Assembly: GCF_900112265.1 (NCBI RefSeq)
Contig: NZ_FOLO01000029.1
Span: forward strand, 1-64,000
Direction of reading: 5' to 3'
DNA length: 64,000 bases
From: Pseudoalteromonas denitrificans DSM 6059
GTDB lineage: Bacteria; Pseudomonadota; Gammaproteobacteria; Enterobacterales; Alteromonadaceae
Below are positions 22,235 to 24,029 of the stretch, piece by piece. Numbering within the stretch: the first letter of the stretch is position 1; each line of letters starts with the position of its first letter. The translations under genes and the position numbers were made by a program. The notes under the pieces were generated by a model. That model was given only the letters and a program-made list of their open reading frames with translations. It searched no databases and had not been told where the DNA came from.

Positions 22235-22252
22235 GATATATCTCCGAAATTT

Positions 22253-22340
22253 ACCACCAGAGACATAATTATTTTATTCAATCACTGCCAACTGGCGGTT
22301 TTTGAATAAAAGGATTCAGTACCGCTCTATAAAAGAGAGC
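22253..22340 (-). promoter_or_regulatory. Trp attenuator: alternative hairpins before trpS
   Basis: On the minus strand four segments can pair in exclusive ways. 1:2 is GCTCT/AGAGC (22336-22340 with 22324-22328), around the leader stop codon. 2:3 is GCGGT/ACCGC (22321-22325 with 22295-22299), enclosing TGAAT/ATTCA (22314-22318, 22303-22307). 3:4 is TTTTATTCAA/TTGAATAAAA (22302-22311, 22272-22281) with inner GCCA/TGGC. Segment 3 (22292-22299) can also pair over 8 bp with 22253-22260, close to the GGAG ribosome site at 22242-22245. No T-run follows 3:4, so control may act on translation or through Rho rather than by an intrinsic terminator. Confidence 0.75.
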
Positions 22341-22386
22341 GCCACCAAGAATTTAAGATGAAGGAAAAAACATTATTTATTTTCAT
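22327..22386 (-). CDS. Trp-rich leader peptide of trpS
   Basis: A 19-residue ORF, MKINNVFSFILNSWWRSLL, with tandem TGG codons (14 and 15; 22342-22347) located just before the hairpin that contains its stop codon. This is the classic layout of an amino-acid leader peptide: a ribosome short of Trp-tRNA stalls at WW and changes the downstream fold. The start codon has only a weak, distant AAGG. A TTGAAA-16-TAATTA promoter candidate lies just upstream, giving a very short 5' end. Two adjacent Trp codons in 19 are very unlikely by chance next to a trpS gene. Confidence 0.85.
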   Translation of the reverse strand: MKINNVFSFILNSWWRSLL

Positions 22387-22450
22387 TTTGTGAGATTATC
22401 AGCCTTAATTATTTAAAACAAGTTCAATTTCAAATTAAAACGGGCTAACG

Positions 22451-23192: not shown

Positions 23193-24029
23193 ATGAAATA
23201 TATAGTTAGCTTGGTGCGTTTGAGTTTGAGTTTGAGTTTGAGTTTGAGTTTGAGTTTGAGTTTGAGTTTGAGTTTGATATCGTTTACATACGAATTGATA
23301 AAGGGGGCTGGAATATTCATTCTATGTATTTCAATAGCCTATGCTAAACCTGTTGATATAAGGATTGTTTCTGAACAGTGGCCACCTCATATAAATATTG
23401 ATGGTAATGGAGTTATTTCAGGAGTATTAGTCAAAAAGGTTGCGCTAATTATGACTAACGCTGACCTTTCTTATTCGATTGATATCTATCCGTGGTCAAG
23501 AGCATACCAATTCGCCTTAACGAAAAAGAATGTCCTAATTTTCCCTATATTCAGAACGAATAAACGCGAAGATTTATTTCATTTTATTTGCCCACTAACA
23601 AAAAAAATTAATTTATATTTTGTTAAGCTTTCATCAAGACATGACATAAAAATATCGTCTTTATCAGACGCGAAAAAATATACTATCGGATTAATTAGAA
23701 ATGACTATGACCACCATTTTCTATTAAAAAATGGTTTTAAAAATGGGCTACAATTAGATGCAAATGCTGACGATTTAAGTTCCTTACGAAAATTGATGAA
23801 AGGGAGAATAGATTTAATGATCCAATCAAAAGGTTCTCTGCTGAAAATGCTCGATTCCTTAGATATAGAAAAATCTAAATTAGCATTTGCTTATAAGTTA
23901 AAAAATGAAAGTGTTGGAGATAATTGTATTGCATTAAGCAGAGGAACATCTCAAATAACGATTGATAAAATTAAAAAGTCACTGAGTGAAATTAACAGTA
24001 TTAACCCTTTATTAGATATTAACAATTAA
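23193..24029 (+). CDS. Periplasmic solute-binding protein (SBP_bac_3-like) with repeat-built signal peptide
   Basis: 278 aa. After an N-terminal stretch ending CISIAYA (probable signal-peptidase site near residue 50), the mature part VDIRIVSEQWPPHINIDGNG...ISGVLVKKV...IDIYPWSRAYQFA follows the bacterial extracellular solute-binding family 3 pattern. Stand-alone copies with no ABC genes are frequent in Alteromonadales. Residues 10-28 are nine Leu-Ser pairs plus Leu, coded by a hexanucleotide repeat (23218-23277). The ATG at 23193 lacks a good ribosome site, so the real start may be elsewhere. The ligand is unknown. Confidence 0.75.
   Translation: MKYIVSLVRLSLSLSLSLSLSLSLSLSLISFTYELIKGAGIFILCISIAYAKPVDIRIVSEQWPPHINIDGNGVISGVLVKKVALIMTNADLSYSIDIYPWSRAYQFALTKKNVLIFPIFRTNKREDLFHFICPLTKKINLYFVKLSSRHDIKISSLSDAKKYTIGLIRNDYDHHFLLKNGFKNGLQLDANADDLSSLRKLMKGRIDLMIQSKGSLLKMLDSLDIEKSKLAFAYKLKNESVGDNCIALSRGTSQITIDKIKKSLSEINSINPLLDINN
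23218..23277 (+). repeat. Hexanucleotide microsatellite (GTTTGA)10
   Basis: Ten perfect tandem copies of GTTTGA (60 bp). In the frame of the surrounding gene it reads TTG AGT, Leu-Ser, and adds an alternating hydrophobic stretch before the signal-peptide core. Copy-number change by slippage keeps the reading frame and would change only the length of the N-terminal segment. Confidence 0.98.

Follow-up and report, generated by a model that had tools for sequence, protein, structure and literature searches.

The auxiliary tryptophanyl-tRNA synthetase gene (trpS, product TrpRS) in the window, by which we mean the whole 64,000-nucleotide stretch of DNA that was analysed, is preceded by an element that we consider likely, if not beyond dispute, to be a ribosome-mediated tryptophan attenuator, in this lineage probably acting at translation initiation; no expression data exist for the window. 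A Trp-codon attenuator in front of an auxiliary TrpRS was also the main reading of the first-pass annotation, and it is supported by leader peptides with two adjacent tryptophans (WW leaders), by conserved stems and by a separate housekeeping-type trpS. A leader, its Trp codons, five helices, a hidden Shine-Dalgarno sequence and the position of a promoter can be delineated by sequence comparison, on which this part of the reading rests (Table 1). The element has what is expected of a ribosome-mediated attenuator, namely a leader ORF with cognate codons, mutually exclusive helices 1:2, 2:3 and 3:4, and a matching stall geometry.

Table 1. Features of the trpS leader region in the window and the evidence for each
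Feature	Position	Strand	Evidence
Predicted -35 element TTGTTT, 17 nt before the -10 element	22416..22421	minus	TTG conserved at -35 to -33; weak match
Predicted -10 element TAATCT, with TGA in front (extended -10)	22393..22398	minus	TAnnnT in 74/80 upstream sequences
Leader ORF MKINNVFSFILNSWWRSLL and stop codon	22327..22386	minus	WW leader in 87/92 places; transcription predicted to begin at its A or close by
Strand 1: two Trp codons and the next two codons	22336..22347	minus	pairs with strand 2
Strand 2 (GAGCGGTACTGAAT), common to helices 1:2 and 2:3	22314..22327	minus	cognate tests
Strand 3 (TTTTATTCAAAAACCGCCAG), common to helices 2:3, 3:4 and 3-4:5	22292..22311	minus	cognate tests
Hairpin 3:4, no U-tract behind	22272..22311	minus	fold, cognate test, U-tract rule
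Strand 5 (TATGTCTCTGGTGGT), complement of strand 3 and anti-Shine-Dalgarno	22253..22267	minus	3-4:5 and 5:6 both p=0.0002
Hairpin 5:6, hiding the trpS Shine-Dalgarno	22237..22267	minus	fold, cognate test, background comparison
Strand 6: trpS Shine-Dalgarno GGAGA	22241..22245	minus	sequence
Auxiliary trpS, 344 aa	21200..22234	minus	TIGR00233 above cut-off; best solved relatives 1yi8, 2a4m

The best solved relatives of the auxiliary TrpRS, matched with E about 4e-109, are 1yi8 and 2a4m, of which 2a4m is named 'Tryptophanyl-tRNA synthetase II'; both are structures of what we take to be the Deinococcus enzyme. Since records of Staphylococcus, Lactobacillus, Listeria and Enterococcus contain enzymes that are roughly 53-54% identical, its earlier description as 'Firmicutes-type' is a fair one. 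The suggestion to look for a second trpS in the genome also bore fruit: there is a separate housekeeping-type gene, 32% identical to the auxiliary one. At the equivalent of His43 (Geobacillus numbering), all 89 auxiliary sequences have glutamine, while 12 of the 13 sequences in the housekeeping bin have histidine; the thirteenth (L001) is the window gene itself, mis-binned by its label. The substitution H43N is cited as giving indolmycin resistance in PMC4899734. It is plausible that the auxiliary TrpRS is indolmycin-tolerant, an inference from one residue and the gene context, without enzyme data.

The 19-codon leader with tandem TGG, ending inside a hairpin, is present as first described, reading from 22386 to 22327 on the minus strand. 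In 51 representatives aligned at the leader ATG, a conserved TTG occupies -35 to -33, and positions -12 to -7 hold a TAnnTT-like block. The motif TAnnnT, ending 6-9 nt before the leader ATG, occurs in 74 of 80 distinct upstream sequences, as against a mean of 10.7 and a maximum of 18 after shuffling; 53 of the 74 also have the TG of an extended -10 element and 42 have a -35 element with at least 4 matches. The -35 element of the window has 3/6 matches, and a scan of the stretch with consensus promoters listed none. A Shine-Dalgarno-like tetramer in front of the leader was found in none of 81 sequences. Because of the promoter at -35/-10 from the leader ATG and the lack of a Shine-Dalgarno before the leader, we predict that the mRNA is leaderless with respect to the leader peptide and that transcription starts from its ATG; the promoter elements are at a fitting distance for this, and no 5' end has been mapped. 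For trpL of Sinorhizobium (S.) meliloti, a transcript starting directly at the leader-peptide ATG is described (PMC7298713).

The minimum free energy fold of positions 22235-22400 has -41.5 kcal/mol (z -4.33), a value reached by none of 200 dinucleotide shuffles. Its main hairpins are 1:2 over the Trp codons, 3:4 behind it without a U-tract, and 5:6 over the trpS Shine-Dalgarno. In consensus, strand 2 reads GAGCGGY..GAAU, strand 3 AUUC..GCYGCYGG, strand 4 GGYAGC.. and strand 5 URUCUCCGGYRGC, with the Shine-Dalgarno as strand 6. Judged by complementarity, the six strands form a putative relay of mutually exclusive helices, 1:2, 2:3, 3:4, 3-4:5 and 5:6. Exclusive pairings 1:2, 2:3 and 3:4, and of strand 3 with the region of the ribosome site, had been proposed from the window alone; they are present and find support in the relatives. 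The double role of strand 5, as anti-Shine-Dalgarno and as partner of strand 3, goes beyond that proposal, as do the probable leaderless start and the wide distribution described below.

For each helix we compared the duplex energy of a strand with its own partner to that with the partners from other species, using 24 representatives of 79 sequences (80% identity clusters) and 5000 permutations; residual relatedness was ignored. For all five helices, the own partner gave the more favourable energy (p 0.0002 to 0.0004), whereas six of seven control pairings had p 0.4 or more, the seventh (4:6) having p=0.02. The first test of 3-4:5 was biased, strand 5 having been picked by its complementarity to strand 3, and was repeated on whole regions without that choice; 3-4:5 then had p=0.0002, with 22 of 24 representatives better than their row median, and 5:6 p=0.0002, with 18 of 24. 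Outside its GC core, helix 2:3 retained the preference (p=0.0002, 28 of 34 representatives, deep homologues included). In ten deep homologues taken separately, 3-4:5 (p=0.0002) and 5:6 (p=0.0004) held up, and 2:3, compared on coarse segments, showed no own-partner preference (p=0.44); this test left out L152 and L155, where no trpS start was found, and the near copies L153 and L156.

An RNAalifold consensus of 33 sequences combines 1:2 with 3-4:5. In it 97.6% of cells pair. Two-sided changes are seen at nine pairs, of which eight belong to the 11 pairs of 3-4:5, a level that none of 500 shuffles attained. Four of five measures were matched by 0/500 shuffles, with far lower values in slid controls; the fifth, which counts further pair types, was not above the shuffles (428/500 reach it). 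Read on the plus strand, hairpin 3:4 (22284-22299) has T's behind it and scores as terminator-like there, opposite to trpS.

Conservation of the Trp codons and stems in relatives had been named as a check on the attenuator. Scanning genome contigs (80 loci kept of >527 relatives) and searching 60 related genomes turned up 92 places with a close relative of the trpS, the window's own included. The check turned out in favour of the attenuator: a WW leader ORF lies upstream of trpS in 87 of the 92 places, which yield 80 distinct versions of the region spanning the Trp codons to trpS, alongside the own-partner helices and the covariation already described. The five places without a WW leader are L014 and L092 (which have the same upstream sequence), L041, L061 (where the sample contains just 219 nt of upstream sequence) and L095. 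In the last of these, from Celerinatantimonas, a leader with a single Trp (MLSFINLNLSVLIGWRAYFKRR) can be seen by eye before trpS, followed by a hairpin with a T-run.

None of the 16 housekeeping-type trpS ORFs in the loci examined is preceded by a WW leader. As a background, 9 of 475 other ORFs scored for one, and eight of these nine are auxiliary trpS genes that the motif filter had missed. A covariance model built from 33 sequences matched in 31 of 394 genomes of the order, our own included; all 30 matches that we inspected, of the 31, precede an auxiliary trpS with a WW leader. The genome of the window has one strong match and a weak one (E 0.16) without a trpS. In a phylum-wide sample, the enzyme was found at E below 1e-80 in 25 of 398 genomes, again with our own, and the leader was WW in 19 of the 25, single-W in one and absent in five (L001 and L007 being scored from the leader search in close relatives). 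Ten stretches from annotated records complete the survey: a WW leader is present in six (an E. coli plasmid, Klebsiella, Agrobacterium rubi, Burkholderia cenocepacia, Bosea, and trpS2, STM4508, of Salmonella), and none was found in the other four, from Streptomyces, Staphylococcus, Acinetobacter and Lactobacillus. Relatives of the element occur in other Proteobacteria, including Salmonella; in the broadest reading it would be shared by gamma-, beta- and alphaproteobacteria.

Some of these records have peculiarities of their own. On the E. coli plasmid pB379_2 (L171, 2233-7494), the auxiliary trpS and its WW leader lie between IS26 and IS1, beside a diguanylate cyclase gene. In the pair L173 and L174, a record labelled as a Streptomyces plasmid has an AT-rich region upstream of trpS that resembles that of a Staphylococcus epidermidis plasmid, and its label may be wrong. 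The Salmonella trpS2 with a WW leader in L178 is on a chromosomal-looking contig within a phage collection. Near a further trpS copy, an Rfam match to the mmgR/suhB small RNA family (RF00519) was found at 2621-2697 of L161.

How the strands would work together is inferred, as regards stalling, folding order, translational output, direction of the switch and purpose of the element. With a transcript that, as predicted, has the leader AUG at its very start, a ribosome would load directly on the leader. While charged tRNA-Trp is plentiful, it would reach the leader stop and cover strand 2; 3:4 would then form, followed by 5:6, and the trpS Shine-Dalgarno would be hidden (OFF). When charged tRNA-Trp is scarce, the ribosome would stall on the Trp codons and leave strand 2 free to form 2:3, which blocks 3:4. 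With 3:4 prevented, strand 5, which is made before the Shine-Dalgarno, could take up strand 4 together with the remainder of strand 3, so that the Shine-Dalgarno stays open (ON). The purpose would be to step in for a housekeeping TrpRS that has failed or is inhibited. We further speculate that after the stall strand 3 might complete a helix 3:5 and keep the site open, a memory step that would explain the pairing of the whole of strand 3 with strand 5. The geometry agrees with this scheme in all 79 distinct elements. If the ribosome is taken to cover 12 nt downstream, a figure that also appears in PMC4833913, strand 2 is exposed while the first Trp codon occupies the A site and is covered once the ribosome has reached the leader stop.

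The first-pass annotation had taken the missing T-run after 3:4 as a hint at a translational output. In the window, no terminator-like T-run follows 3:4 on the minus strand, and its absence does point in the proposed direction, because a further helix, 5:6, hides the trpS Shine-Dalgarno. Such hiding is well above background in the auxiliary genes: by local folding, pairing of the Shine-Dalgarno reaches 80% or more at 95 of 114 auxiliary candidate starts vs 54 of 279 others, and 95% or more at 68 of 114 vs 17 of 279. The candidate starts comprise up to three Met codons per ORF, with a good Shine-Dalgarno only, and are not all independent genes. The window element does not meet the definition of an intrinsic terminator at 3:4 and, having no U-tract, was not filed as a classical transcriptional attenuator; of the traits of a translational attenuator after the logic of erm and cat, it has the Shine-Dalgarno of the gene lying in a conserved helix. 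Its output is most simply read as translational.

The alternative that survives best is that these elements act through transcription alone, with an imperfect intrinsic terminator or else Rho at work on the untranslated stretch; the Shine-Dalgarno hairpin would then be a by-product or a minor second layer. A lenient rule finds terminator-like U-tracts behind 3:4 in 36 of 91 elements, in 4 of 4 distinct ones from Serratia, 10 of 15 from Aeromonas and 22 others, many of them from Vibrio and Alteromonas; besides, the trp precedent is transcriptional, and equilibrium folding leaves the Shine-Dalgarno closed. Yet the U-tract is absent in the other 55 of the 91, the window included, 5:6 retains its own-partner complementarity (p=0.0002), the extent of Shine-Dalgarno hiding is far above background, and termination has no need of a 3-4:5 that competes with 5:6. 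We therefore regard transcription alone as unlikely, without being able to set it aside, and relatives of the window may use both outputs. Terminators and Shine-Dalgarno hiding show no reciprocity, as no difference in pairing is seen between elements with and without a U-tract (p=0.99); our expectation of weaker Shine-Dalgarno hairpins in the terminator-bearing elements was thereby rejected.

Folding calculations do not settle in which direction the switch works. At equilibrium with ribosome masks, even a stalled ribosome together with an imposed 2:3 does not open the Shine-Dalgarno of the window, and imposing 3:5 costs 6.3 kcal/mol in the window (0 to 12.2 over 19 elements). As equilibrium folding gives no open Shine-Dalgarno here, the proposed switch is kept as a kinetic model only. 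A crude home-made script for folding during transcription, too coarse to decide on the direction, opened the Shine-Dalgarno of the window to 0.25 and 0.40 in two runs with a stalled ribosome vs 0.00 and 0.01 with a ribosome at the stop; in the second run, neither 2:3 nor 3-4:5 was seen and opening came about via other pairings. Over 18 elements, the means for the stalled, free and stop states were 0.29, 0.05 and 0.06 for 3-4:5 and 0.29, 0.19 and 0.19 for Shine-Dalgarno opening, with L004 and L077 as counter-examples.

Two further alternatives have little in their favour. In the first, the peptide itself would matter, through a peptide-specific arrest or an action in trans instead of plain stalling at Trp codons. 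After WW, R is found in 55 and S in 58 of 76 distinct peptides, and the leaderless TrpL peptide of S. meliloti acts in trans (PMC7298713). However, the R and S codons are part of strand 1 and hence of its pairing with strand 2, which can account for them; the remainder of the peptide varies, and deep homologues have other residues after WW, as in WWLPS or WWPA. We consider a role of the peptide as such very improbable. In the second, the logic would be reversed, stalling freeing the strands for 5:6 to form and Trp shortage turning trpS off. The closed equilibrium folds would be consistent with this, and so would the RNAalifold consensus, which joins 1:2 with 3-4:5 and thus has an open site without a stalled ribosome. 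Against it, such a response would be physiologically senseless for a synthetase, the window came out closed with a ribosome at the stop in every computation we ran, and in Salmonella trpS2 rises with the trp genes, being listed as 2-fold induced in biofilm along with them in PMC2805695. Reversal thus appears hardly credible. Finally, nothing was found in favour of a chance ORF with chance folds, which the WW leaders at 87 of 92 places, the covariation and the fold z of -4.33 practically rule out.

The ribosome-mediated attenuator proposed here is a variant of a kind already known, Trp attenuators before trpS having been predicted in Streptomyces. In S. coelicolor, the gene for an auxiliary, indolmycin-resistant TrpRS is said to be under a ribosome-mediated attenuator, established experimentally by Vecchione and Sello and transcriptional in its output. 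The window element, in contrast to this reportedly transcriptional case, lacks a terminator, has a hidden Shine-Dalgarno and belongs to Proteobacteria. In the translational attenuators of erm and cat genes, a ribosome stalled on the leader frees a hidden Shine-Dalgarno, the stall being caused by an antibiotic on the ribosome. The hidden Shine-Dalgarno of the window would likewise be freed by a stalled leader ribosome, as we infer, but the stall presumably results from a lack of charged tRNA-Trp and there is an extra relay of strands. With the trp operon attenuator of E. coli and its relatives (RF00513, Trp_leader), the element shares tandem Trp codons and the logic of 1:2, 2:3 and 3:4; it differs in having the extra strands 5 and 6 and in controlling trpS. 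The Trp_leader model gave 12.2 bits vs a gathering score of 41; in the window no Rfam family of any kind reached its gathering score, and in the related loci no attenuator family did.

In the literature, Trp attenuators of trpS are predicted in Streptomyces (PMC1262725). The Streptomyces cases resemble the window element in having a Trp leader peptide before a second TrpRS gene, and in their resistance context. The trpL of S. meliloti differs from the window element in controlling trpE(G) by transcription termination (PMC7298713). Lopatovskaya, Seliverstov and Lyubetsky (2010) treat attenuation of amino-acid and aminoacyl-tRNA operons, with mechanisms that overlap the ribosome-binding site and with chains of helices, according to PMC4833913; their work may include this element or part of the finding. 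No trpS leader attenuator of Proteobacteria was found described in a literature search from which most subscription papers were excluded.

If the attenuator holds true, it would be a conserved case in which a leader peptide senses amino-acid starvation and translation initiation provides the readout, within a family that lets terminator and ribosome-site outputs be compared directly. The attenuator would also predict that auxiliary TrpRS genes are turned on by failure of TrpRS, including that caused by natural antibiotics such as indolmycin. A more ambitious version seems to us possible, with rather more to be said against it than for it at present: an old RNA relay of gamma-, beta- and alphaproteobacteria, in which a leaderless WW stall would act through four further strands to open the Shine-Dalgarno of an antibiotic-tolerant spare TrpRS, that is, an inducible immunity against natural TrpRS inhibitors, with outputs gained and lost between lineages and with the 3:5 memory step.

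For Salmonella and its relatives, the attenuator would suggest how trpS2 is controlled, which fits the tolerance of trpS to insertions there: PMC3487940 states that Salmonella trpS tolerates transposon insertions, and its authors suggest that TrpS2 substitutes. A possible link to indolmycin is seen in another genome of the same genus (G023), which has two auxiliary TrpRS genes, one with the element (listed as L010 and as L145). The second (L144) comes after genes for an aminotransferase, a glyoxalase-family protein and a methyltransferase and is itself followed by a LuxR homologue; no leader is seen in its 320 nt of upstream sequence, most of which is aminotransferase gene. The whole (817-7271 of L144) looks like an indolmycin-type gene group with its own leader-less auxiliary trpS and the LuxR homologue adjoining. 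It resembles the indolmycin cluster of Pseudoalteromonas luteoviolacea, which likewise has its own Trp-tRNA ligase (PMC5069768). By this analogy, drawn from one genome only, a self-protection copy would go with the cluster and a stand-alone copy with the attenuator. Elsewhere in the window, a six-base repeat, TTTGAG, at 23219-23277 lies inside ORF 23193-24029, where it forms a Ser-Leu tract near the start, and looks slippage-prone.
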